Program-made: the position numbers and the translations under genes
Shown: piece by piece, positions 4,869 to 58,932 of the stretch
Layout: each line of letters starts with the position of its first letter
Numbering within the stretch: position 1 is the stretch's first letter
IMG/VR virus record: IMGVR_UViG_3300047388_000292
Span: 34,428-98,427 of that record
DNA: 64,000 nt
Source of the DNA: a virus
Direction: 5' to 3' (one strand)
The notes under the pieces: generated by a model
Databases searched by the model: none
What the model saw: the letters and a program-made list of their open reading frames with translations, nothing else
Told to the model about the DNA's origin: nothing

Positions 4869-6725
4869 TTACGGGTTGATCGGCGTGCCGTCGTCGTAAC
4901 GGTTCCCCGCCCCCCACACGTTCCCGGAGTCGGTGCCGCGCTGGTGGACGGTGCCGTTGTCCCAGCCCGCGATCGGGCCGTACACGCCGCACTGGCCGGT
5001 GACGCCGCGCCCGAAGACGTTATTGGCGATGTAGTCGCCGATCGTCGGATACGGCTTCTGCGTTCCCTGCCCCGGATACAGGCAGACCGCGACTTGGCTG
5101 CCGTCAGCATAGTTCGGTCCGGCGGGAGCCAGATAGTTGTATTCGGCGTCGAGCGTGACCTGGTTGAAGTCGGGGAACACTGACAGGTCGCCTGAGCAGC
5201 CTGCGTTCCCGCCGCCGACAACTGCGCCCGGTAGCGTGGCGGCCTGGTCGCCGCAGTTGATGTAGTCGTGAATGGCGGTGAGCTTGTTGCCCGGCCCGTT
5301 GCCGTTGCCACCGATCCCGTTCATGTGGAATGTGGATTGGACGACGAGGCCGTGCTCCCACGAGTCCTTGACGATGCAGTTCCCGTCGCAGTGGTCGGGG
5401 CCGTTGCCGCCGTGATTGTTGACGTGGTCCTCGTAGAAGTTGCCGTAGGAGATGTTTGCGCGGTTGACCTGGATCGTCGACCCGTCCGATGCGGTGTAGG
5501 TCGGCATGTCAGCCGTGTCGATCTCGTCGTAGCTCATCACGAGCGGGCCGTTGACGTCCACGTAACCGATGACCTTCGAGTTCTTCAGCGTCACGCACGG
5601 CGTCGCCGGGGAGCTGGTGCCGTTGCCAGCGTTGTCGGAGAAGCTGCCGGTGATGAGCAGGCCCGAGATGGTGACGTTGCACGAGTTGACCTCCACGGCC
5701 TGATTGCTGGCGTTCCAAGTCCAGCCCGGGCCGGAGGTCGCGTCCTGCGGGACGCGCGTGAGGACCGTTCCGGCCGGCACGCCGGTGCTGCTGGGGCCGG
5801 GCCAGCAGCCGCCCCACGGGTCGGGGCTGTCGGGCGCGTTCGGGGTGCTCGCCGGGCAGTTGCCGCTCGGCGTGGTCGACGTGGTGCTCGTCGTGCTGGT
5901 TGTGGTGGTCGGCGTTGTCGAGGTTGTCGAGGTGGTGGTCGGCGTCGTGGTGCTCGTGGTCGTGCTGGTCGCTCCGGTCCCCGAGACGTAGGCGCTGACC
6001 GGATTGGAGTTCCACTGCAGCGCGGGCGAGTAAGGGTTCGGGAAGCCGCTGCCGGACCAGTCGAGATTCGACCCGCCTGAGCCCATGTCCCGGTAGCTGA
6101 TCGTGCCGCCCGTCTTAGCGCCGAGCGCGATCCAGTACCGGGTGCCGCTGGTGATGCTCGCGTCGCCGGCCAGCGGGACGGTCGCCCACCCCGCCGCGTT
6201 AGAAGCGATGGTGGCGGTGTCGAGGCGGGCGCCCGGCTTGCCTGCGCTGTCGGCATACAGTCCGACCTGCGCGCCGTCCGTGGAGTCGAGGTACACGCTT
6301 ACGCTGGCGGCAGTGCCGGACGCACCGGCCGTGTAGCCGAATGCCTCGCTTGCAGGCGCAGAGCTTCCGTCGTGGGTGCCTTGGACAGTTTGGCTTCCCA
6401 GCAGCACCGTGCTGGGTGGAGGAGGGGGGGGCGTTGTCGGGACGGTGAAGCTGCCGATGATCGTTTCGGTGTGCGCGCCCGGCGCAAGGCCCGTCTGATT
6501 CAGCGGACTCGTACAGGCAGCCGGCGTGCCGCCGTCAAGCGAGCACTGGAAAGTCGCGCCCGGCTCATCGGACGAGAAGCTGAAGGATGGGCTTGAGCCG
6601 GCGCCGAGGGCGACCGCGCCGCCGATCCCGAGGATCAGCGCGAGGAGGCCGAGGACGATGTAGGTGGTCAGGTCGGGCTTGTAGATTCGGCGCACGTCAG
6701 CTCGCCAGTTCGGTGTTACCGGCAT
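4869..6725 (-). CDS. Membrane-anchored adhesin or tailspike-like protein with Ig-like and beta-helix domains, 618 aa
   Basis: Domain order: a basic N-terminus; one membrane segment at about residues 21-43; an Ig-like domain of actinobacterial type (C-S-L-D-G..C-x-S-P-L) at about 45-92; a Pro linker; a lectin-like module at about 105-250; a Thr/Ser linker of roughly 40 residues; then a Cys-containing right-handed beta-helix-like region to the end, with N-N-H-G-G-N-G and repeated Asn/Gly turns. This looks more like a host cell-surface protein than a classic tail fibre. The annotated ATG overlaps the upstream gene by 29 bases; a GTG at 6695, just past the upstream stop, fits junction spacing better. 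Confidence 0.65.
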   Translation of the reverse strand: MPVTPNWRADVRRIYKPDLTTYIVLGLLALILGIGGAVALGAGSSPSFSFSSDEPGATFQCSLDGGTPAACTSPLNQTGLAPGAHTETIIGSFTVPTTPPPPPPSTVLLGSQTVQGTHDGSSAPASEAFGYTAGASGTAASVSVYLDSTDGAQVGLYADSAGKPGARLDTATIASNAAGWATVPLAGDASITSGTRYWIALGAKTGGTISYRDMGSGGSNLDWSGSGFPNPYSPALQWNSNPVSAYVSGTGATSTTTSTTTPTTTSTTSTTPTTTTSTTSTTSTTPSGNCPASTPNAPDSPDPWGGCWPGPSSTGVPAGTVLTRVPQDATSGPGWTWNASNQAVEVNSCNVTISGLLITGSFSDNAGNGTSSPATPCVTLKNSKVIGYVDVNGPLVMSYDEIDTADMPTYTASDGSTIQVNRANISYGNFYEDHVNNHGGNGPDHCDGNCIVKDSWEHGLVVQSTFHMNGIGGNGNGPGNKLTAIHDYINCGDQAATLPGAVVGGGNAGCSGDLSVFPDFNQVTLDAEYNYLAPAGPNYADGSQVAVCLYPGQGTQKPYPTIGDYIANNVFGRGVTGQCGVYGPIAGWDNGTVHQRGTDSGNVWGAGNRYDDGTPINP

Positions 6726-13234: not shown

Positions 13235-13791
13235 CAGACCGTCGCCGCCTCAACATACTCAGTCAGGAAGGTCTCTGAGGGAGATGGAGCCGGATCAAGA
13301 CCAAGCAGCACGCGACACGGATTGCAGTTGTCTGCAATGTCGAGCAGAACTGCGTGGACTTCGTCAGCGACGTCGGCGTATTCCTCTGGGATATCGAGCT
13401 TCGCGATGTGCCCGTATGGCCACTGCTTCGTGCCGGGGACATCTGCGTAAGCGATGCCGACGCCCGGAGTTCCTGCATCTGGGTGGCCGGGATGTGACCC
13501 TGCAGGAGGACCATGACGCCAGTCGGTACGACCTCTCAAAGTATCTTTCAAGACTCCACACAGGCCCCGAGTCTTAGGACCAAAACGCTTGAAATTGTCA
13601 TGAAAACAAGCAGTCCAGGGATGAGGGCTGGCGGCGTAATGCTTGAGCAGAAAACGGAGATAAGACATCTTTTGTCGATCTGCTGTCACAGCCTCAAATC
13701 GAGCAAGCAACGTCATAATTGCTTGATCAATCCGCTCATCTTGAGCAACTTCAATACGATTCCTCGCAGCGGCTTCAACAACAGCATCCAT
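13234..13791 (-). CDS. Conserved phage head-region protein with HPWTAC motif, 185 aa
   Basis: I choose the ATG at 13791, which forms a TGATG overlap with the endonuclease upstream; the longer frame to 13848 is an overlap artefact. The N-terminal 60 residues are helical. The core H-P-W-T-A-C..D-N-x-K-R-F-G..C-G-V-L-K-D-T-x-R-G-x-T-x-W-R matches a family I have seen near portal and protease genes of actinophages. No biochemical role is known to me. Confidence 0.6.
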   Translation of the reverse strand: MDAVVEAAARNRIEVAQDERIDQAIMTLLARFEAVTADRQKMSYLRFLLKHYAASPHPWTACFHDNFKRFGPKTRGLCGVLKDTLRGRTDWRHGPPAGSHPGHPDAGTPGVGIAYADVPGTKQWPYGHIAKLDIPEEYADVADEVHAVLLDIADNCNPCRVLLGLDPAPSPSETFLTEYVEAATV

Positions 13792-14321
13792 CAGACCAAC
13801 ATCGCCTTCTTCTTCGCTGCAGCAGCTTCTCGGCAACAGGCTCGACAATAACGATGCCCATTTCTGCGAATCCCTCGATTAGTACTACCACGTGGAGCAT
13901 CATCGTCAAGTCGATGGCCATTGCGGCAGTAAAGGAAAACTTCAATACGTTGCACAGATTGTTCTGCGTACTTCGCTACACACTCCTCGATCACAGCCCG
14001 ACGACGAGAACTCATAAGCGGATAGACAGCGACCATGATGTCGATCGCGCGTCTTGCTGTAACTCGATACTCCCAGTGTTCATTCCCGGCGACTGTGATG
14101 CTATTCATCCTCACGGGTCCTGGGAAGGTTGCAGTTAGCCGATCAAGAGGCTCTCGGAAATTCTGCGATGCAATGACAAGTGGATAACCAGAATGATCAA
14201 TCCGGCTCTCCGGACGCCGATCATCTCCGTACCAACCGAAGCACCCTTCACCTTCAAGGAACCCAGCGATCCAGTAGATCTCGGGATCTCGCTCCCATGT
14301 TTGAACTGACGCGTCAGACAT
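13791..14321 (-). CDS. LAGLIDADG-type homing endonuclease with C-terminal zinc-ribbon, 176 aa
   Basis: The start at 14321 has GGAG upstream; the longer frame to 14402 runs into the next gene. W-I-A-G-F-L-E-G-E-G-C-F (residues about 16-27) is a LAGLIDADG motif, and only one is seen, so the enzyme would act as a dimer. The last 50 residues add C-R-N-G-H and Y-C-R-A-C-C, which suggest a zinc-binding DNA-contact module. It is free-standing, between small head-region genes. Confidence 0.75.
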   Translation of the reverse strand: MSDASVQTWERDPEIYWIAGFLEGEGCFGWYGDDRRPESRIDHSGYPLVIASQNFREPLDRLTATFPGPVRMNSITVAGNEHWEYRVTARRAIDIMVAVYPLMSSRRRAVIEECVAKYAEQSVQRIEVFLYCRNGHRLDDDAPRGSTNRGIRRNGHRYCRACCREAAAAKKKAMLV

Positions 14322-14541
14322 TCGCAGTCTCCACTTGTGCCATGTTGCGAAGCATCTCCCCCATCTCGAAATCCGACATCCCGGGAGAGAAGATGTGTCC
14401 ACATCCGCTGCACTTGAGCACCACGTTCAGCTCGTCGGCATATTCCTCGACTCGCTGAAAATGCTTGTATGACAGGATGTTTCGGCGCATCTTGCAGTTA
14501 GGACAAAGCAGCCGACTACCCTGCATCAGGCGTGGCTTCAT
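14314..14541 (-). CDS. Small zinc-ribbon protein, 75 aa
   Basis: Two Cys pairs, C-P-N-C and C-S-G-C-G-H-I-F-S-P-G, about 30 residues apart make a zinc ribbon likely. The ATG at 14541 overlaps the stop of the HNH gene; a TTG at 14550 is an alternative. Its role may be DNA or RNA binding; I see no catalytic motif. Confidence 0.55.
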   Translation of the reverse strand: MKPRLMQGSRLLCPNCKMRRNILSYKHFQRVEEYADELNVVLKCSGCGHIFSPGMSDFEMGEMLRNMAQVETANV

Positions 14542-40576: not shown

Positions 40577-43500
40577 TCATCGCAGACGCAGCATTTCGCC
40601 AACGGCGAGCGCGTAAACCTGAGCATCCTCGTCGCTGACAGACTCAGAGACGTAGAGGACTTCCTTGTCAGAGTCGTAACCAGCGAGCTCACCGTGTCCA
40701 TTCAGATGAACCGGGACCATAGGAACTCGCTCAACAACAAGATGATCAGTCGAAAGCGGCGAGAACCACAACGTCCCCCGTATATGCTCCTCCGCGGCAC
40801 GCGAAATCGCCTCATCGACAGATAACACTTCTCCATTTATCCTACGGCACTCACTATCCGTAAGCTGGTCACGCCCATCAGAAGCATCATGGGCCTGAAC
40901 CTGTCCTACACCCGCATCACGGAAGGCAAAGAGCGCTCCGTGGTTGTAGGCCGGCAACGCTTCAGCGAGAACAACACGCTCTGAATGGGTCTCCGCGGTG
41001 TCCGCGAAACGCTCCTCAGCATCCTTAGCCACCTTCGCCGAGTCAGTCTCCTTCTGAAGCTCTTGCTCGAGAAACGTCTGCATCTCCGCGCGAATGGTCT
41101 CATCGATTGACTGCACAACGAACGACGCCCTCTGCTGTGCGTGTTGGGCGAGCACTCCCTCATCAACCACCTCGGCGCCAAGGTGTGCCTGCTTGAGCTC
41201 GCGTCGCGCCGCCCGGATCGCGATGGCCAAGAGAATGGCTGCGATCGTCGTAGCAGCAAGGTCGGCGCTGCGTCCAGTCTGCCACGCACCCACGACAGAC
41301 GCAGCAGTACCGGCAGCAGCGATTGCCGATAGCCCAGCGGGCAGTGCCATATGTTGAGACATCGACTGCTGAGCAAGGTGTAAGACAGTCTGGTCAAGCA
41401 TCGAAACGAACGAGGAGACCTGCTCCTTGTAGCGCTCGAGCATCACCTTGCGCAGCCGCATCATCGACGCACGCACCGACGCGTCTCCGTACGCCGGCAC
41501 CCCATCGGGAAGTTCAGCGAGGAATCCCTGTCCAGAAGTCGAGAGATCAATGCGCTGCGGCGGCTGAACATAGATGAAGCCATTCTGGGTCTTCTCAACT
41601 CCCGAGTTGTAACCCTGCATCCCTACCTTGCTTGGCGGCATCTGTGCAGGCTGCATCGCTGCGGCTTCCTTGGCAATCTGCTCTAGTTGTTGCTTCTGTT
41701 GCTTCTCGGTGAGCACTGGAATACCCATGCGCTTTAGTACCTCATAGATGTTCACCGGAAGAACATTGCCTTGCACCTGTCCAACCAATTGAATTACTTG
41801 CTTCATTATTTCCGTGTCATATTCCCCAAATCCCTCCGTGACTTTCTCGCACGGTATTCCTGCGTACTCCGGGAAGTTAGACGCAATGAACTGAGGGATC
41901 ATGTGATCGTTGATCTCACGATCATTCTCATCAGCAAGCATCTGCTGAGACTCTTGATAAACCTCACCGAGCTGGATCCCCATCAATCTCGACGAACCTC
42001 CCTGCGATCCAGACGAAGAACTCTTTGTACCCTCAATGAATGCCTGCTCAGGAATGAGCATCGAATTATGAAGCACAACACCCCCGGAGATGAAGTTCTT
42101 GCGCTCGTCAGGAGCGTCAATCGCTACATCCCATACGTCCTCAATTCCGTCAAATTCTACTAAGACAACCGTGACTGCATCGCATTGCTCCTCGAATGAT
42201 GGAGTAGGACCTGATCTGGCTCCCATCAGACGTCCAGTTGTTTCATCGACATGCCCATTACGCTCACGCCATGATCGGTTGTCTCGAATTCCATGTTCAT
42301 ACCTGCACGCCTGGCACTGATACTGCCGAGACCCAGTTGGAGCATACTCGCGGCCACACTCATCGCAATGCTTGAGTTTGAAATCGACTGAAGATCTCGG
42401 AGGTAATGCGACCTCTTCCAGTTCTCCGTGATAACGAGCAAGTTGATAGTGGTTGTTGCATAGCCCGCGAGCATAGACCCGACCACTACACCCCTCTCGA
42501 TCACAATCCATAGGCGTCTCATCAAGCACACGCCGACGCTCCTCCAAGAGAAGATCATCAGCAGCATGGAGGTCAGACACCCTCGCAGCTCGTCGTTCAT
42601 CACTGATCTTCAAGTGAGATTCGCTCTGCTTTCTCCTAGTCTCCGCTCCCCAACGCCGACCAGTACGTTCAATCGCATGATGCTCTGCGCTCGTGACACC
42701 TTGAAGATTCTCGACAGCGGTGTTCGCATGCATCGCATCTACATGATGTGTATGCAATTTCTCCTCACCGCCACGTATTCCCATCCATGCAGAAACCTCG
42801 TCGTACTCCTGAGTTCTGCAACCACTATGCGATGCCGGATCCAACTTCACACGTGGCTCAAAATCACGTCGGAATTCAATCAGTCGATCGCCTTCGACCA
42901 ACTCTCCAAGAATCTTCCACTTCAAATCAGTTGTCAAAAACGGATGATTAGCAGTTCCTCGAATATCTTTCCCGTTCGACAAGTGGACCTTGAAGACTGG
43001 TTGATCTTGCTGAGTCAGCATTGCTGCTTTCACAGGGCTAAGCTCGAACCTGAGAGTCATCAAGTTGAACGTCCAGACAGGGTCTCCAGATTTCAGCATC
43101 GAGATCGGCACGCCATCAGGGAACCGTCGATGATCACGAGGACAATCGATCGGGGTATCCGCTGTGACGCAGCGGAACTTCAAGCTATCCAAGTACGAGA
43201 ACGAATGTGCAAGCTCATCGAACTTGACCGGTGGATCGTAGTAACCAGCTTCCCACTTACGATGAGTCGACTGACGCCCTTGCTCATCCATCATGAAGTC
43301 ACCCGGCCACGCCACCGTCTGGCCAGAGCGCATCTGATCACCCATCGAGAGCGCAAGTTGCTGCAGATGCTTGATCGTCGGAGTACCAGTCTCGAGACCG
43401 GGATCCTCCGGATCAAGTGCCCACGGCACATCAGTGGGGTAGTAGACATATCGAGGAGGATCAGCCGCATTCTCGAAAGCTCTGTCGGATAAAGCCCATC

Positions 43501-44587
43501 GATACCAATAGCTCCACCAGTAGCGGTACGCACGTGCCGTGCGGGGATATCCGTAAATAGATCCGAAATTACGAGTTTGTTCATTGACCGGCCACATCGC
43601 AAACTCTGATTGGATCTCAAAGCCAGGAACAACTGAGTATCCATAGAGGTTTGCGAGCCCGATCTGAATCGGGTTAGGCAACGGGACAATCGAGTAATAG
43701 AAACCAGCAAACTCTCCGCGCTGGTTCCATCTCGGCATGCAGTGCTCTGGCGCCAATACATACGGCGTATCCCACATCAGAGGTGCAACGTTGGAATCCC
43801 AGACAGGAATATCGTGCTCCGGATCATCGCCGTTGGGATCTCGATATGAAGACTTGAGTTCGCCGAGCTTGAAGCGCTTGCACATCGGCTGATATCCGTA
43901 TGGCAACTTCCCGTTGATACCTACTTGGAGCTTAGGATTGACCGGACGAAGAGCCTCATCCACAGCCGCCGCGACTTGAGCCACTGGACACTTTATATAC
44001 CACGGCGCACGAACAAGAGGAACATCCGTGAAGTGGAGCGCAAAATTGACCATCGGGTCCGTCGTCATGTCACGTAGGACACTGAACGGAAGCCGGCGTA
44101 CGGAGAAGGGATTACCAAGACGCTCGTAGAGCAGAGTCAGATTGATGAGCTCGCCCTGCGTCTGTTGACGTGCAGACGGAGCGATCGAGCGCGCGTTCCG
44201 AAGACGATCAGCTACGCCCTTGTCGATATCGACCCGGAGTGAAGCCACTTCCTCTGGCGAGAGACCTTGGACGGCCTCGTACCCACCAAACGGTGTCTGC
44301 CCGTAGGCCGGCCCTCCACCGCGTCCTACAGGAGGCGTTTGCACCCCTGTCAGCGGCGCCTCAGTCGGCGTCTGAGGACTGTAGGACATCGGACCCTCTG
44401 CCCCAGTAAATCTCGGATCCTGCGTGTTCGATCCAGGCGACGTCGACTTGAAGCTCGATTGACCTCGATCACGTCCCTCCGGCGCCGTCGATACATATCC
44501 AGGGACACGCCCTTGCGATTTTCCACCTCGAGTTGCCCGACTACGAGCGAGGAAGAGATCGAGATCGGTGAGATTGTCGCTACTCAT
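40577..44587 (-). CDS. Portal protein fused to MuF-like domain, interrupted by an intein, 1336 aa
   Basis: The N-terminal extein (to residue 472) and residues 842 to about 1000 form the portal; Y-R-Y-W-W-S-Y-W-Y-R-W near residue 365 lies in its core. A region near 1085-1130 has two hydrophobic segments. The C-terminal 250 residues look like the Mu gpF head-morphogenesis domain (A-E-A-L-P-A-Y-N-H-G-A, D-G-R-D-Q-L-T-D-S-E-C-R-R-I-N-G-E, then G-T-L-W-F-S-P). Splicing out the intein leaves 967 residues. ATGA overlap at the start. The gene follows terminase and two small genes, as expected. Confidence 0.8.
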   Translation of the reverse strand: MSSDNLTDLDLFLARSRATRGGKSQGRVPGYVSTAPEGRDRGQSSFKSTSPGSNTQDPRFTGAEGPMSYSPQTPTEAPLTGVQTPPVGRGGGPAYGQTPFGGYEAVQGLSPEEVASLRVDIDKGVADRLRNARSIAPSARQQTQGELINLTLLYERLGNPFSVRRLPFSVLRDMTTDPMVNFALHFTDVPLVRAPWYIKCPVAQVAAAVDEALRPVNPKLQVGINGKLPYGYQPMCKRFKLGELKSSYRDPNGDDPEHDIPVWDSNVAPLMWDTPYVLAPEHCMPRWNQRGEFAGFYYSIVPLPNPIQIGLANLYGYSVVPGFEIQSEFAMWPVNEQTRNFGSIYGYPRTARAYRYWWSYWYRWALSDRAFENAADPPRYVYYPTDVPWALDPEDPGLETGTPTIKHLQQLALSMGDQMRSGQTVAWPGDFMMDEQGRQSTHRKWEAGYYDPPVKFDELAHSFSYLDSLKFRCVTADTPIDCPRDHRRFPDGVPISMLKSGDPVWTFNLMTLRFELSPVKAAMLTQQDQPVFKVHLSNGKDIRGTANHPFLTTDLKWKILGELVEGDRLIEFRRDFEPRVKLDPASHSGCRTQEYDEVSAWMGIRGGEEKLHTHHVDAMHANTAVENLQGVTSAEHHAIERTGRRWGAETRRKQSESHLKISDERRAARVSDLHAADDLLLEERRRVLDETPMDCDREGCSGRVYARGLCNNHYQLARYHGELEEVALPPRSSVDFKLKHCDECGREYAPTGSRQYQCQACRYEHGIRDNRSWRERNGHVDETTGRLMGARSGPTPSFEEQCDAVTVVLVEFDGIEDVWDVAIDAPDERKNFISGGVVLHNSMLIPEQAFIEGTKSSSSGSQGGSSRLMGIQLGEVYQESQQMLADENDREINDHMIPQFIASNFPEYAGIPCEKVTEGFGEYDTEIMKQVIQLVGQVQGNVLPVNIYEVLKRMGIPVLTEKQQKQQLEQIAKEAAAMQPAQMPPSKVGMQGYNSGVEKTQNGFIYVQPPQRIDLSTSGQGFLAELPDGVPAYGDASVRASMMRLRKVMLERYKEQVSSFVSMLDQTVLHLAQQSMSQHMALPAGLSAIAAAGTAASVVGAWQTGRSADLAATTIAAILLAIAIRAARRELKQAHLGAEVVDEGVLAQHAQQRASFVVQSIDETIRAEMQTFLEQELQKETDSAKVAKDAEERFADTAETHSERVVLAEALPAYNHGALFAFRDAGVGQVQAHDASDGRDQLTDSECRRINGEVLSVDEAISRAAEEHIRGTLWFSPLSTDHLVVERVPMVPVHLNGHGELAGYDSDKEVLYVSESVSDEDAQVYALAVGEMLRLR
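42065..43171 (-). mobile_element. Intein with HNH endonuclease and zinc-finger inserts, 369 aa
   Basis: It starts at Cys473 (C-V-T-A-D-T-P-I, block A-like) and ends G-G-V-V-L-H-N at Asn841 before Ser842 as the +1 residue. T-A-N-H-P-F-L-T is the block B region. Between lie an HNH-like centre (H-T-H-H-V-D-A-M-H-A-N-T-A-V-E-N-L), then two Cys clusters (C-D-R-E-G-C..R-G-L-C-N-N-H-Y, and C-D-E-C-G..C-Q-A-C). The second block is typical of free-standing phage HNH enzymes, so the intein seems to have absorbed such a module. Ends are read from motifs and keep the frame exactly. Confidence 0.8.
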
Positions 44588-50848: not shown

Positions 50849-51926
50849 CAGCCATCTCCTCCTGTCGTCTACTTAGATCCTCGGCACCCCACCGGAACAG
50901 CACCGAAGAGCGCTTCTGTTCAAGATCGTAGTCCGGCCGAATCCCTCTTGCGAATCCTATCAGGTTGGAGTCCGAAAGTCTCATGGTCTTGTTCTGATAG
51001 TCCGTCTTACAAAATGCTCCCTTGAAATCACAGTTAGCACAGGCAGGAGCGGTCCACTTCTTAGCTCGGCCCTCGTACGGATGAGCAGGAATTTCCCCTC
51101 GAAGGAAGTAATCCCTCCACTCCGCGAGCCTCACGCGTCCTACAGCGAGGAACTCAGGGTCGTAGAACACCCGAAACGACGCGGTGGTCAGAGGATCCTC
51201 GCGTGAGCTGTAGATCAGCGTCCCATCATCTGGTGGCATCAGCGGGATCGACTCGAAAGCACAGCGCTGACCGTGGATCGGACAGATGTAGTCGTCTCGC
51301 GACGAGATGATTGCTCCAGACTCGTTGCAGATATGAACGGTCGGCGTGTAAGGCATCTCGTGCGCGAGACCGATATATGTTTTGAGCTGCCTCACATACT
51401 TCGGATGCTGTAGCGGGAACGTCGGCTTCTCCGCACGCATCGCGAGCACTTTCTCATGACTCGTAGTCTTTATCTCGACCAAGTGAGGCTTCATCCATCC
51501 ACGCGGTAGAACGATCGCATCGCAAGATCCTGTGAGCCAATGCTCCTCATCCTCGAACCCGGTCTGGAAGTCATCCTCAGCAGTCACATCAGCGGAAAGA
51601 AGCACCCCGTAATTCCGCAGCCGTCTAATCCAGTTGTGCTCCAATGCATTGCCAATATCAAACCACGCCTGCAGAAACGGTTTCCTCGGCGCCGGCGCTG
51701 GAGGATCAAGCAATCCATAGACCAACTTTCGCCCACAGGCATCAGGATCATCACCAGGGAAAGAACTCGCGTGGAACGAAGAAAACCAAGGTTGACCATG
51801 AGGAGAACGATCTTCACTGCGCCACTCTTGTTCAAGTTCCTGCTCGTACGCAGCCATGATCAACGGAGAAACAACTGGGGCATGCTCCTCAACCATTGCC
51901 CACAATTGAGTGCGCGAAAGTCCCAT
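50832..51926 (-). CDS. RecB/Cas4-like PD-(D/E)XK exonuclease, 364 aa
   Basis: TAATG overlap sets the start at 51926. The nuclease core is G-S-C-D-A-I-V-L (Asp136) and L-V-E-I-K-T-T (Glu151, Lys153) with a following Q-L-K-T-Y. Cys64 and the C-terminal trio Cys296, Cys299, Cys306 are placed like the four Cys that hold an iron-sulphur cluster in Cas4/AddB-type nucleases. It is likely the phage's recombination exonuclease, working with the RecA-like protein two genes upstream. Confidence 0.75.
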   Translation of the reverse strand: MGLSRTQLWAMVEEHAPVVSPLIMAAYEQELEQEWRSEDRSPHGQPWFSSFHASSFPGDDPDACGRKLVYGLLDPPAPAPRKPFLQAWFDIGNALEHNWIRRLRNYGVLLSADVTAEDDFQTGFEDEEHWLTGSCDAIVLPRGWMKPHLVEIKTTSHEKVLAMRAEKPTFPLQHPKYVRQLKTYIGLAHEMPYTPTVHICNESGAIISSRDDYICPIHGQRCAFESIPLMPPDDGTLIYSSREDPLTTASFRVFYDPEFLAVGRVRLAEWRDYFLRGEIPAHPYEGRAKKWTAPACANCDFKGAFCKTDYQNKTMRLSDSNLIGFARGIRPDYDLEQKRSSVLFRWGAEDLSRRQEEMAGVSND

Positions 51927-52408
51927 TATGCCCCCGCCAACATCGCTCGCTTGATTCTGCAAATCGTCGCCTGCCCCACTCCATATTCTTTAGCGATTTC
52001 CCGCTGGGTACGAAGATCCTTAGATATCGCCTCTACCTGTTGTACATTCAACTTCGACCTTCCATCAAATATCGCATGACATCGGTCACATAGCTCAAAC
52101 CAATCCGCAAAGTTCAACGTATACCTATGACCAATACACGCATACTCGGTTTTAGCATCCACGCGACCGCAATATTCACATCGACCGCTGTATGGATATA
52201 TTTCCCGCATCAATTGATGAATACGAAAATACGGGCTCGCAAAATGTCCGCCCCCTAACTCAACAACATGGCTAAACCAAGATCTCTCACGATTATATTT
52301 GGAGAAAGATGGGTCTCCATATCTGAGCCACCGCTTGTAATGCTTGGCGCATAACCCACGCGCCCTGACTACTCGGTTACAGTCAAGAACTGAACAGATC
52401 TCGATCAT
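51926..52408 (-). CDS. HNH-type endonuclease with C-terminal HTH, 160 aa
   Basis: N-terminal finger C-S-V-L-D-C-N-R-V-V-R-A-R-G-L-C-A-K-H-Y-K-R-W, middle C-E-Y-C-G and C-D-R-C-H-A-I-F-D (an HNH variant), and an end Q-R-E-I-A-K-E-Y-G-V-G-Q-A-T-I-C-R that is a helix-turn-helix. It is wedged between recA and the nuclease with ATGA and TAATG overlaps, so it probably entered without disturbing either. Confidence 0.7.
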   Translation of the reverse strand: MIEICSVLDCNRVVRARGLCAKHYKRWLRYGDPSFSKYNRERSWFSHVVELGGGHFASPYFRIHQLMREIYPYSGRCEYCGRVDAKTEYACIGHRYTLNFADWFELCDRCHAIFDGRSKLNVQQVEAISKDLRTQREIAKEYGVGQATICRIKRAMLAGA

Positions 52409-53541: not shown

Positions 53542-53780
53542 GTCGCAACCTTTGTCTTCACTTTAGGTTTCGCAGGTGGATCGACCTGATACAGCATGGT
53601 CACGATCCCGCCCTGAGGAGCACTACAGACCAGAACCGGCATGTCATGACTAACGGCATACTCAAGAGCCTCTTTATAAGCGGCATCAACACCCCACACC
53701 CAGAACGATCTCGACCGTCCTTGAGTCGGGATCAACCGATGTCGAGACTCAACCTGGAATGGATCAGCAACTAATCCCAC
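53538..53780 (-). CDS. Unknown small protein, 80 aa
   Basis: GTG start overlapping the dnaE stop (TAGTG). Alpha/beta-like (F-W-V-W-G-V-D-A-A-Y-K-E-A-L-E-Y-A and V-L-V-C-S-A-P) with a Lys/Pro tail. Sits between dnaE and recA. Confidence 0.5.
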   Translation of the reverse strand: MGLVADPFQVESRHRLIPTQGRSRSFWVWGVDAAYKEALEYAVSHDMPVLVCSAPQGGIVTMLYQVDPPAKPKVKTKVAT

Positions 53781-56700
53781 TATGCCGCTACCTTTGCCTT
53801 CTGATCCTCAATCCACTCTTGCACGCTCATCGACGCCTTGACAACGACCTTGTCCGAAGAATCTTTCGAGCCCTCGACGATGATCCCATTCCCGACTGTG
53901 AGCAACCCATTCGCCGCCGCCCACGGAGCCGGAAAGAATGTGCAGTTCCACTCATCAAGACCGAACTTCATCCGAACATGACCCATCGCCTGACCTGGAT
54001 TCCGTCCCTTCTTCGTCACAGTCGGACGCACGTCTGAGATCACACCGGCGATCACGATGCGGTCACCCGGATCCATTTCATCGAACTCATCCTGAGAGAA
54101 GACATTGCGTAGCACAAGTTCTTCATCATCTCCAAACGTTGCCCCCGGCCTGAGCGCCATCCCAAGCCTGCGCAGCTCGGTCGCCGCCTTCTGAGAGTCG
54201 GTCCAATCGGTGCGGGCCCCGAGAGAATCAAGCGCGCCAGCCTCGAGTAGCGCCTGCCTATGCCCCTTGTTCACTTTCGAATACTTGAAGCTGTGCGACA
54301 GCTCGAAGTGCTCGACCGAGTCATATGGAGCTCGTTCAACAACTTGATCAGCAGCGATCTTCCCCACCCCATCCACTCCGATCAACCCGTAGCGGATCGC
54401 GCCGGCGTCATAGTCCACCGTGAACCCGATACCACCTCGATTGATATCCGGCGCCTCGATCGAGACACCAAAGTGCCTGGACTCCCGAATCGCCCTCGGA
54501 GTCTTCTCATCCTCGAGCGTCAAAAGCACAGCGTAGAACTCGAAAGGATAGTGGACCTTCAACCAATCGTCTTGATATGCCTGCACGCTGTACCCGCTCG
54601 CATGAGGGCGATTGAATGAATACCCAGTGTAAGGAAGAATCTCCTGCCATAGCTCCTCAGCCGGATCAACACCGATATGCTCAGACGCCTTCGCAATGAA
54701 CTCTTCCTTGCGCGCGGCCAACCGAATCCTTCCCTGATCACTCTTCCCTCGGTTGAGCTTGTCAATCTCCTTACGCACATCATCAGCTTGCGCCGCCGTA
54801 TACCCAACGAGAACCTGGAAGATCTCCATAATCTGCTCCTGGAAGCAGAGACTTCCGTACGTGTCAGCAAGCACAGGCTCAAGAACTGACGGGATCTCTA
54901 CATCCTCAGCACCATTCTTGCGCTTGACGTAACGATTGTGTCCACCTGACCCCATCGGACCCGGTCGATAGATGGCATTGACCGCAGAGAGATCGACTAC
55001 ATTCATCGGCCGCGCTTGTTTCAAGTATGACGTGATCCCTGAACCCTCAAACTGCCAGATGCCGAGAGTGAATCCATGATGGAACACCTCCATCACCTCT
55101 GGCTCAACGTCGTACGGATCGAAACAGACTGGCAATGAGTCAAGGTCGATCTGTTGGCCAGTACGTTCAGCGATCAGCGTCACTATCTGATTCTGCTGAG
55201 TCATGCCGCGGATGCTGAGGAAGTCCCACTTGCAGAATCCAAAATCATCAACAATCGAAAGACGCGGAGTTTCCGACCAAGCAGTGCGTGATGTCGGATC
55301 TTCCTCACTAGCCCTGATCGTCGGCATGTAGTCATTGATTGGACCTGGAGTGATGATCACACCAGCAGCATGCTTACTGAGCCGACGATTGAATGGATCA
55401 CCGTGATTCTCCAAACGCACAGACGAACGCCATGCATCCGGATATTTGTTGGCCCACGCATCAAGACCAAAAACATAAGACCGCATCTCTTCAAGATCTT
55501 CATCGTGGATCGGATCAATGTTGTCTGTGACCACACGTGTTTCCATGTAGTCAATACCCATAATGCGCGCCACATCAAGGATCGCCGCCCGTGGAGTAAA
55601 CCTCTGCATCGCCACGATGTCCGCGACTCGATCACGTCCGTGCTTACGAGCCACATACTCTTTGATCAGATCGCGCTTGTCATCCGGAAAGTCGATGTCA
55701 ATATCCGGAAGCCCCTTACGCCCTGGATTGAGAAATCGCTCGAACTTGAGCTTGTGCCTGATTGGATTGATACCCGTAATACGGGCCGTGTAACAAACCA
55801 ACGAAGCTCCCGCTGATCCTCTAGACGACCCTACTCTGATCGGTCGCTTCGGCTGGGGATTTGGATCTTCAGGTGTTGACGGCAACGGATCAGTGGAACG
55901 AGCCCACCGTACGACATCACCAGTCAGATACAAATACTGCCAGTGGCCCTTCATATCGATGATCGAGAACTCGTAGTCAAGCTGTTGCTCGTACTGCTGA
56001 TCGCCAACAACGCCAAGCCGATCCATTCCCTCCCTACACCACTGACGCACAATACGTTCAGCGTCAGCCATCGTCGGGGCACCGCGGGGCATCTTCAGCG
56101 ATCGATCAACAAGGAATGGGATGATCGACTGAGCAATGCGCTCGTTATTCGACACAGCCTCGTGTACGACTGACTGCGGTATTCCTGGGTGATTGACCGC
56201 GAACTTCGAGAGAACCTCCTCGGTACTCATCAAATGCATCCCATCGTGCCATAGATCGTATGGCTCAAGACCCTCCGCGCGCTTGGCCTCCTGCTTCTCC
56301 TCCCAAGCCTCGACGGTCTTGTTCATGCCGATAAGAATCGCGATCTTCTGCGTATCGACCCAGCCCTCGTGAACGTAGTGTGCGTCTCCTCCGACCGAAA
56401 GCGGTATCCCCCACTTGTTAGCGCGGTAAACAATCTCCGGGTTGACAGCTCGCTGAATCTCGAAGTCGTGTGGCTGGATCTCGAAGTAGAGCCTGTCCTT
56501 GAATCGATCAACCATGCGCTGAATCCACCCGTCGATCGCAGCGTCAGTGGCTGACTGGATCAGATAGGAGAGAGGACCGAGCACGCACGCAGTGGTACAG
56601 ATCAGTCCCTCGTGGTACTGGTCAAGCAACTCATCCGTCACCGAGGGATACTGATAAAAATTCTCCGGTCGGTACGCCGCCGAGGAGATCTTCAACAGGT

Positions 56701-56993
56701 TATGCCAGCCCGTGAGATTCTGCGCGAGAAGAATCATGTGCCAACGTCGATGCTGCCACTCCTTCTCGCGAATCACCGTCGGTCTGTAGTACGCCTCAAT
56801 ACCCATGATCGGTTGAATCCCGGACTTCTCACACGCCTTCATATGCTTCAGAGCACCGTTGACGTTGCCATGATCAGTCTGCGCAAGCGCCCACATCCCG
56901 AGCTCGGCTGCACGCTCGGCGAACATGGATGCAGTCCCACACCCATCAGAGATAGCTGTCGTCAGAGTGACGATGAAGCTCTATATATTGCAC
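53780..56993 (-). CDS. dnaE: DNA polymerase III alpha subunit (DnaE-type), with an in-frame break after codon 15
   Basis: From 56926 the frame encodes 1048 residues: rest of the PHP domain (A-Q-T-D-H-G-N), catalytic L-P-D-I-D-I-D-F-P-D-D, a second active-site region W-D-F-L-S-I-R, and an OB fold near the C-terminus. The missing start is present upstream: GTG at 56993 begins V-Q-Y-I-E-L-H-R-H-S-D-D-S-Y-L and meets TGA at 56948; skipping one base gives D-G-C-G-T-A-S and joins the polymerase frame. So the metal-binding H-x-H is encoded but needs a +1 shift. Otherwise translation starts at 56926 without it. It is the replicative polymerase of the phage. Confidence 0.8.
56946..56954 (-). other. 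dnaE: Candidate +1 frameshift site TAT CTC TGA in dnaE
   Basis: The junction TAT-CTC-TGA-T reads Y-L-stop in the first frame and Y-L-D-G-C-G after a +1 shift. It is two bases from the RF2 (prfB) site TAT-CTT-TGA-C. No upstream Shine-Dalgarno stimulator like that of prfB is visible, and CTC is a poorer slip codon than CTT, so a sequencing error or true mutation remains possible. Confidence 0.4.
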
Positions 56994-57000
56994 AGCCAGA

Positions 57001-57630
57001 TCACCCCCTCTCAACCAACTCCGAGAGATGCTTCCAACTACGACGTTCTACTATCGCCTGAATGGTCGTTCTCGCAACACCATACTTCTCGGCAAGAAAA
57101 GTTTGCCTTGATCCGGTTGCATACTCTTGCAGAATCTCTAGAACCTGTTCCTCATGCAAGATCGCTTGTCCGTGCTTCTCTCCGGTCGTCGGATTGTGAC
57201 GACCGCGCCGCATCTTGTCAGCCATGTTGTCAGCTTGCGTTCCTGCGTATAAATGATCTGGGCGAACGCAATTCGGAACATCACATGTATGCAAGACCTG
57301 AAGACCATCTTGAACACATCCAACCAACAGCCTGTAAGCAAATACGTGAGCGCCAATAAATTTCCCGTCAACCCAAAGCTTCCCATGCCCAAAATCATTC
57401 GCTGGAGTACCAGTCCAAAGCCAACATGTATCAGTCTTCTCGACATGCAACCAAAAACGCGTTACAGGATCTCCGTATCCAACACGATTTGAAATAAGCG
57501 GATTGCCATGCTTTGCCCATCGCTTGTAGTGCATTGAACACCACCCGCGCGCACGCACCTTACGAAAACACCCGTCTACAGAACAGGAGTCGTCGCTATG
57601 TCTGTGAAGCTCGATGTACTGCATGCCCAT
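57001..57630 (-). CDS. HNH endonuclease fused to a copy of the DnaE N-terminus, 209 aa
   Basis: The first 15 residues (M-G-M-Q-Y-I-E-L-H-R-H-S-D-D-S) are those of DnaE; the typical HNH-family start C-S-V-D-G-C-F-R-K-V-R-A-R-G-W-C follows at once. HNH core: C-W-L-W-T-G, L-H-T-C-D-V-P-N-C-V-R-P-D-H-L. A helix-turn-helix (F-L-A-E-K-Y-G-V-A-R-T-T-I-Q) ends it. Its start overlaps the dcd 3' end by 35 bases, where dnaE itself would be expected to begin, so it has taken over the dnaE start. Confidence 0.8.
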   Translation of the reverse strand: MGMQYIELHRHSDDSCSVDGCFRKVRARGWCSMHYKRWAKHGNPLISNRVGYGDPVTRFWLHVEKTDTCWLWTGTPANDFGHGKLWVDGKFIGAHVFAYRLLVGCVQDGLQVLHTCDVPNCVRPDHLYAGTQADNMADKMRRGRHNPTTGEKHGQAILHEEQVLEILQEYATGSRQTFLAEKYGVARTTIQAIVERRSWKHLSELVERG

Positions 57631-58159
57631 ATCGACTTGCGACCACGCCTACAGAGTCCTGGTAATGGTTGCGCTCATTCGAGTAGAGACGTTCGCATCT
57701 AGCCGAGAGCTCCTCGAAGCGCAACTGAGCAATCAACAATTCTGACCAAATCCGCATCGGCCGTGGCCAGAAGTTGACGATCTCAAGAGTCACGTTGCCA
57801 TGAAATCCGGGATCTAGATAGCCAGCACTTTCAATCTGCATACCCTGCCTTGCCCGACTCGACTTGCCAACAACAATGCCAACCAGCACGCTCGGAATGT
57901 GAACTGATTCGACTGTTGATCCAAGCACAAACTCACCGCTGGCTATCAAGAACCCGTCACTGATGTCAACTTCTTCCATCATGTCATCAGTCATTGGCTC
58001 TCGTATGTCGAGCACGCCATGATTGCGACTCGGCACAAGGATCTTCGATGACAGCCGGCAGTCATAGGAAGAAGGTTGAAGCTGCTTCTCATCATATGGA
58101 TCAATCAATTCATCGCTAAGCACGTAGCGACGAATATGATGATCAGGAAGAACGGTCAT
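57596..58159 (-). CDS. dcd: dCTP deaminase-like protein, 187 aa
   Basis: Start at the ATG at 58159. Family motifs are L-Q-P-S-S-Y-D-C-R-L-S near the N-terminus, G-K-S-S-R-A-R-Q-G-M-Q-I-E-S-A-G-Y-L-D-P-G-F-H-G-N-V-T-L-E-I with the catalytic Glu in the I-E-S-A-G-Y stretch and trimer-forming strands. It makes dUTP from dCTP (some members go on to dUMP), feeding ThyX encoded just upstream. The family also includes dUTPases, so activity should be tested. Confidence 0.8.
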   Translation of the reverse strand: MTVLPDHHIRRYVLSDELIDPYDEKQLQPSSYDCRLSSKILVPSRNHGVLDIREPMTDDMMEEVDISDGFLIASGEFVLGSTVESVHIPSVLVGIVVGKSSRARQGMQIESAGYLDPGFHGNVTLEIVNFWPRPMRIWSELLIAQLRFEELSARCERLYSNERNHYQDSVGVVASRYGHAVHRASQT

Positions 58160-58932
58160 ACCTTCTGGTACTCCGGAACCCACGATCCATCTACATCGAG
58201 ATTGAAATCCTGGAAAAGCAGCGGAGCCTCTTGCTGCATGATGTATCCAACCCTCTCGAAGACAAACCGAATCTCTTCCTCGGCTCCCGCTGCCGTGCGC
58301 GCAGCAATCACATGACGAAGGGTCCGAATGTTTGCCGTCCAGACCATGCCAGTGGAGAGACCAAGAGGAGCCAGCCGACGCAGCGCAGACGTAACTTCCT
58401 TCTTGACGTGGAATGGCACGCCATCATCATCCAGACCCAGCTTGTCTGCAGCCTCGATCTGGAATTCCTCCAACCTCTCCACCATACTGATGACGGATTG
58501 ACGCATCGGCTCCAACCCTGGCGGTACACGGAACCCAAGCTCAGTCAAGCGCACATACCGCAGAGACTCCTGACTGATTGCCACACCAGCACGATGACGG
58601 ACAAGCTCGTGCGTAAATACCCTCGAGACATTGTGGAAGATGAAGGTGTAATAGGCATGTTCAAGAACGCTGCCGTGACGAGACTTGAGCAAGTTATCGA
58701 AGTACTCCCGCTGGTCCGTGCGAATCTTCGTAACGTTCTTGTTGAGGCCCGGCTTCCACGAGCGATAGCAGTAACGCCCACAGAACTCAACCAACGACTC
58801 TGCATCCTTCTCATCGTGCGTACCGCTATCAAGCCAGTCCTCTCCACCGACCAACTCCAAGTACTCAATAACAGCATCCCAGATCAACGCAGGACGTGCG
58901 ATCAAATAAACCTTTGGCTCTGTCTCAATCAT
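58156..58932 (-). CDS. thyX: Flavin-dependent thymidylate synthase ThyX, 258 aa
   Basis: The ThyX signature R-H-R-x7-S is present: R-H-R at 112-114 and Ser123 in R-H-R-A-G-V-A-I-S-Q-E-S. Other family features are H-G-S-V-L-E-H at 86-92 and R-H-V-I-A-A-R-T near the C-terminus. It methylates dUMP using FAD and methylene-folate. With dcd and a DUF1599 gene alongside, it forms a thymidylate-supply cluster. Confidence 0.88.
   Translation of the reverse strand: MIETEPKVYLIARPALIWDAVIEYLELVGGEDWLDSGTHDEKDAESLVEFCGRYCYRSWKPGLNKNVTKIRTDQREYFDNLLKSRHGSVLEHAYYTFIFHNVSRVFTHELVRHRAGVAISQESLRYVRLTELGFRVPPGLEPMRQSVISMVERLEEFQIEAADKLGLDDDGVPFHVKKEVTSALRRLAPLGLSTGMVWTANIRTLRHVIAARTAAGAEEEIRFVFERVGYIMQQEAPLLFQDFNLDVDGSWVPEYQKV

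Follow-up and report, generated by a model that had tools for sequence, protein, structure and literature searches.

A homing-type HNH element has, with a probability that we put at about 70%, entered the polymerase gene dnaE of a virus after about codon 13, bringing with it a foreign, differently coded dnaE start together with an RBS. The window, i.e., the whole stretch of 64,000 nucleotides that was analysed, is part of a 98,427-bp IMG/VR virus record, and its minus strand carries, in this order, an SSB-like gene, a small gene, thyX, the dCTP deaminase gene dcd, the HNH gene, dnaE, another small gene and a recA-like gene. The insertion, the recoded end and the stranded end are seen directly; the HNH enzyme would cut the uninterrupted dnaE start, and it is plausible that the recoded start resists such cutting.

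Two dnaE starts flank the HNH gene

The dnaE N-terminal peptide QYIELHRHSDDS is encoded twice on the minus strand, at 57621-57586 (copy 1) and at 56990-56955 (copy 2; 56955-56993 with its GTG start codon). Copy 1 forms the in-frame leader of an HNH_3 endonuclease ORF of 209 amino acids, leader included (57001-57630, minus strand; Pfam HNH_3, E=5e-8; PHROG endonucleases; starts at ATG 57630 or 57624), and copy 2, which probably arrived with the HNH gene, provides a second dnaE start in other codons. The sequence-only reading had placed the same peptide at the N-terminus of the HNH gene and just ahead of the polymerase body, and all 12 residues are indeed identical; its count of nine differing codons among these 12 has to be lowered to eight, nine being reached only as 9/13, with the start codon (ATG/GTG) included. 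At the nucleotide level, 12 of the 36 positions differ without a single amino acid change. When 12 random substitutions were introduced per 36 nucleotides, the complete 12-residue peptide was preserved in 0 of 200,000 trials; therefore, both copies were under protein-level selection until recently. The two copies therefore diverged at a time when each still served as a functional dnaE start. Their joining is recent, because copy 1 is conserved although it does nothing for DnaE as part of the HNH protein, in the structure model of which residues 1-10 are disordered (pLDDT about 50, the remainder being confident). If the dnaE start had been duplicated in tandem on the spot and the copies had then diverged, both would yield the same peptide, but this is highly improbable given the outcome of the random trials and the change of one third of the nucleotides with unchanged amino acids, although copy 1 has no role in DnaE; a simple recent duplication, which would have refuted the sequence-only reading, is thus not what is seen.

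The number of codon differences itself is not exceptional. Pairs of DnaE proteins with 75-85% identity commonly share an identical N-terminal 10-mer in which 8-10 of 10 codons differ. Divergence between ordinary orthologues thus produces equally many codon changes, so that directed recoding is a needless assumption for the window, and we rejected it as a requirement. Both spellings occur in intact relatives: copy-1-type codons are found in L178 (CTG CAC AGA CAC AGC GAT GCT TCG) and copy-2-type codons in L212 (CTA CAT CGC CAT TCT GAC CAC AGT).

The HNH gene

The HNH protein opens with MGMQYIELHRHSDDS, followed by CSVDGC..., which is the usual start of the family; its relatives begin right at this finger, for example with MTNGCSIDDC or MKLCTVVEC. 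The HNH_3 endonuclease is intact, and copy 1 is its in-frame leader. The protein consists of the N-terminal finger, the HNH core and a C-terminal helix-turn-helix region. Residues H114, C116, C121, H126 and N135 are invariant across 19 relatives, and the HNH_3 domain has the conserved catalytic and zinc residues that characterize phage HNH homing endonucleases. The absence of the HNH gene from most relatives, and its position within or next to a conserved gene, are likewise typical of homing endonucleases. The best fold match is I-HmuI (1u3e), a weak one (E=0.0019).

Introns often house HNH enzymes (PMC2988022), and the unit sits within a gene, so a self-splicing intron or an intein bearing the HNH gene was considered. 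No intron RNA core was detected near the HNH gene by Rfam even at E<=1 across 50-62 kb, and no intein domain was detected by Pfam; the HNH ORF takes up the interval and closes with a stop codon at 57001, and a full copy of the upstream exon is not expected in an intron. Accordingly, the group I or II intron was rejected for lack of an Rfam match (the sequence-only reading had already argued against a group I intron), and the intein for lack of a splicing domain and of an HNH ORF open through to a C-extein; the probability of either is close to nil.

The dcd gene (57596-58183, minus strand; Pfam DCD, E=1e-32; PHROG dCTP deaminase) is an intact ORF that ends with a stop codon at 57598-57596, such that the last dcd codons overlap copy 1 in a different frame.

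The frame break and the start of dnaE

Copy 2 reads ...DDSYL and then runs into TGA (56948-56946), which closes its frame, while the body of the PolIII alpha-type polymerase is in the +1 frame (53780-56926, minus strand; 1048 codons open from ATG 56926; Pfam PHP, DNA_pol3_alpha, DNA_pol3_finger and HHH_6). Thus, dnaE as assembled is not open from GTG 56993, and its only start is ATG 56926, at which the first PHP strand is missing. Omitting the extra T at 56948, which lies at the putative insertion site (dnaE codons 13-15), gives DDSYLDGCGTASMFAERAAEL, i.e., SYLDGCGTASM, matching S-x-LDG-x-G of the relatives. GTG 56993 is preceded by a near-perfect RBS, GAGAGGGGGTGATC (56999-57012, minus strand), which is located within the 3' end of the HNH gene and forms an anti-SD duplex of -25.1 kcal/mol, compared with -4.6 to -9.9 kcal/mol for the other candidate starts. 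The sequence-only reading, which gave GTG 56993 for copy 2, overlooked the frame break before the body.

The extra T56948 may have been left as a scar at the junction, may be a recent mutation that disables the gene, or may be an error of the assembly. Since the conserved genes neighbouring the HNH/dnaE locus are intact, full-length ORFs, a random assembly error precisely at this position is not the obvious explanation. The prfB programmed frameshift site is CUU-UGA. A comparable programmed +1 frameshift at CTC-TGA seems remote here: no stimulatory SD was found near the site, and re-pairing is expected to be poor. A more extensive error, in which an assembly chimera merged two related strains with different dnaE starts and thereby produced both the double start and the frame break, would suit a metagenomic contig with a 1-nt frame break at the boundary and an arrangement that has no second record in IMG/VR. 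The full length of the adjoining ORFs, the position of the HNH stop within a near-perfect RBS placed for GTG 56993, and a like layout in another gene of finished isolate genomes (see below) speak against such a chimera, which we consider quite improbable. As a separate observation, L172 and L173, which are 99.96% identical to each other, have, at about 4930-4980, a frame-shifting insertion in the dnaE start, in the LHR/HS motif, relative to L171; the motif is the same as in the window, and the change is a different one.

dnaE loci of related phages

The closest DnaE relatives, which are 50-52% identical (L167, L168, L169, L178, L212 and L213), all have single, uninterrupted dnaE starts. No duplication of the dnaE start was found among 98 other phage dnaE loci, in which an upstream copy of the N-terminus scored at most 36, compared to 80 in the window. 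Similarly, in a flank-repeat scan that covered 82 related HNH loci, the window scored 75, compared with a null maximum of 49, and none of the 81 other sampled viral HNH loci has a clear flank repeat, such that the window alone stands out. It should be noted that the evidence from the window consists of a single metagenomic contig with 12 informative codons. A search of IMG/VR returned no second record of this virus or of either dnaE start, the four matches to either start in a genome search were unrelated chance matches, and no distant DNA match of the HNH/dnaE locus was found in phage records.

Among 111 dnaE loci, only L213 has an HNH gene of the window's family within 1.5 kb upstream of dnaE; in L213, this is a free-standing HNH_3 gene, the stop of which overlaps the dnaE start, without duplication. 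The dnaE gene is a recurrent target in this phage group. Inteins were observed in DnaE of L212 (4929-9014) and L213 (4926-8990) by Pfam Intein_splicing, with an HNH_2 signal in L212.

A mirror case in methylase genes of cultured phages

Scanning the flanks of about 15 HNH loci of isolate phages revealed only one clear second case, Mycobacterium phage Awesomesauce (MT553347); the score of 55 for DumpsterDude is due to low-complexity arginine-rich sequence. In Awesomesauce (L201, 1911-2655; also L301 and L302), a C5 methylase gene with a recoded C-terminus is followed by an HNH gene and then by the displaced native C-terminus. The methylase ends with ...QVRQSGNAVTPCAARDLVGVVAQSLGVSA and overlaps the subsequent HNH gene at ATGA; a second, startless methylase end, SRNAVTPPAARDLVGVVAESLGVTS, lies immediately past the HNH stop. 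This HNH protein belongs to the family of the window's HNH, with about 35% identity, and is also present in SkinnyPete, DocMcStuffins, Misha28 and TootsiePop, with the match extending across the locus.

We compared both methylase ends with those of HNH-less relatives (TChen, Piper2020, Sparky, Mao1 and EdnaMode). The displaced end has 83-100% DNA and 100% protein identity to these relatives, and that of Misha28 equals that of TChen over 60 nt. The end before the HNH gene (Awesomesauce, DocMcStuffins and Misha28) has 60-63% DNA and 90% protein identity to them, with 2-4 of 20 codons in common. The polarity is known because the HNH-less relatives match the displaced end: these alignments clearly indicate that the end joined to the gene is foreign and that the displaced end is native. 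The GC3 is 0.25 for the methylase end before the HNH gene, 0.90 for the methylase gene body and 0.66 for the HNH gene. The recoding has a sharp onset 5 codons ahead of the insertion point and continues to the stop, and the inserted end is in phase with the gene body. The methylase case thus resembles the window in that a recoded end is joined to the gene and the native end is displaced beyond the HNH gene; it differs in being C-terminal, in frame and present in several finished isolate genomes.

These data bear on mosaic recombination, in which an L213-like lineage and an HNH-less lineage would have recombined by one illegitimate crossover that left both starts, with the HNH gene as a passenger and no cutting by its product required. 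The free-standing HNH gene ahead of dnaE in L213, the occurrence of both codon types in intact relatives, and the finding that phage recombination boundaries are often marked by nuclease genes (PMC10448857) are in its favour. However, dnaE codons 13-15 are where copy 1 breaks off, where the duplication ends and where the extra T is located, and the methylase genes have a sharp recoded tract across the insertion point, so that we regard a mere crossover as unlikely.

Other HNH loci differ in what has been retained. In the Gordonia phages Bradissa (L199, 1995-2660) and Wrigley (L303, 1928-2590), a related HNH gene and the displaced methylase end remain, and the methylase core is missing at this position. 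EvePickles has a related HNH gene behind a methylase with a native-looking end, with neither a recoded end nor a remnant, and in phi18-2, where the HNH gene lies behind thyX, no duplication was found. EvePickles, together with the 81 viral loci devoid of a clear flank repeat, implies that elements of this kind are in the minority.

Which copy is native

The sequence-only reading joined a donor start plus HNH gene to the resident dnaE. The two independently evolved starts hold; the direction is more likely the reverse, i.e., copy 1 is probably the displaced native dnaE start, and copy 2 is probably foreign and was carried by the HNH unit. Copy 1 is taken as native because it overlaps the end of dcd and because copy 2 fits the codon usage of the HNH gene. 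Specifically, the codon usage of copy 2 falls in the 31st percentile for HNH and in the 0.7th percentile for dnaE, and that of copy 1 falls in the 8th percentile for dnaE; a second comparison gave a similar outcome, with copy 2 among the lowest 0.5% of dnaE windows. With 12 codons, this amounts to moderate evidence. Copy 2 is more likely foreign also because the foreign copy is the one joined to the working gene in the methylase phages.

Proposed course of the insertion

Under the preferred reading, insertion of a homing element, the HNH enzyme would cut a conserved gene near one end, and repair of the break from a donor would bring in the HNH gene plus the donor's version of the cut end. The gene would regain an end, the new junction would no longer match the HNH target, and the native end would be stranded beyond the HNH gene. 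In the window, the insertion point would be HRHSDDS^YLDG, after about dnaE codon 13, and the inserted unit (about 57585-56955) would comprise the HNH gene, the strong RBS and a dnaE start from a related lineage. The stranded end is here the start codon region and would thus have turned into the HNH leader: the native start, still attached to dcd, would now drive the HNH gene as a passenger leader. After the insertion, dnaE would still be startable, with the original target interrupted (copy 1) and its place taken by a version in other codons (copy 2).

More generally, some phage HNH homing elements may be natural "home and rescue" drives, of which dnaE, the methylase and ShiLan (see below) would be three versions; we give this generalization even odds, and the methylase phages contribute more to it than the window does. 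Such an element would disrupt an important gene close to its start or its end. It would also supply a substitute for the broken end, spelled in other codons, resistant to cutting and equipped with a translation signal, which would allow life in a coding sequence without an intron or intein. In the usual view, homing endonucleases in coding sequences need an intron or intein, or leave a split gene. If the generalization is true, recoded replacement of the severed end would be a third way, to our knowledge so far known from fungal mitochondria, the repeat at the ShiLan methylase insertion would be explained, and recoded rescue gene drives would have a natural counterpart.

Comparison with known systems

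In Allomyces atp6 and in Glomus atp6, atp9, cox2 and nad3, two copies of a gene end enclose a homing endonuclease ORF (PMC3630166); the atp6 copies have 63.5% DNA and 91% protein identity, the differences are mainly synonymous, and the gene-joined copy is the foreign one (PMC3630166). The window likewise has an endonuclease ORF between two gene-end copies, and in both the window and the methylase phages the copies differ synonymously with the protein conserved. The fungal mobile-ORF gene hybrids are, however, C-terminal, mitochondrial, mostly LAGLIDADG, in phase and transcript-tested (PMC3630166), unlike the window, in which the duplicated N-terminus belongs to a phage polymerase, the enzyme is of the HNH type and the new start is, as assembled, 1 nt out of phase. 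In the fungal hybrids, the inserted end is in phase with the gene body; because copy 2 is not, as assembled, we describe the window as working like a mobile-ORF gene hybrid and do not call it a member. What is new here is the phage, HNH, N-terminal form of a layout known from fungal mitochondria, and a search of open-licence literature yielded no paper that describes phages with recoded replacement ends.

The seg and mob genes of T4 are free-standing phage homing endonucleases that home without introns, by break repair with co-conversion (PMC2988022), and the window's HNH gene resembles them in lying beside or inside an essential replication gene. Aeh1 nrdA and gene 43 of phage 25 stay in two pieces (PMC2988022); unlike these, the window element would supply a replacement for the severed piece. 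In ShiLan, an HNH insertion in a mycobacteriophage methylase gene is neither an intron nor an intein; read in the frame of the methylase, it opens with 11 residues that are similar to the 11 directly following it, with 65.7-67.8% nucleotide identity (PMC11855218). The authors weighed this repeat as a sign of an intron, and a replacement target flank was not among their proposals (PMC11855218). In the ShiLan genome, we found that the repeat SYEPVCVAVKP / AFEPIVVARKP flanks the hidden HNH insertion in gp65 (L307, 1502-2140), with 7/11 amino acids and 18/33 nucleotides identical, which suggests the same kind of duplicated target flank. Unlike in the window, the ShiLan insertion is internal and read through in frame, with the HNH ORF in a different frame (PMC11855218).

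Other elements in the window

Three further ORFs on the minus strand of the window were observed. A portal-like protein (40577-44587) seems to harbour an intein-like insertion (CVTADTPIDC ... VLHNS), the finger motif of which resembles the one in the HNH family. A finger-plus-helix-turn-helix ORF related to HNH endonucleases (51926-52408) follows immediately after the recA-like gene. Finally, an ORF at 13791-14402 has a LAGLIDADG-like start (YWIAGFLEGEGCFGWY) and may represent a second kind of homing endonuclease.
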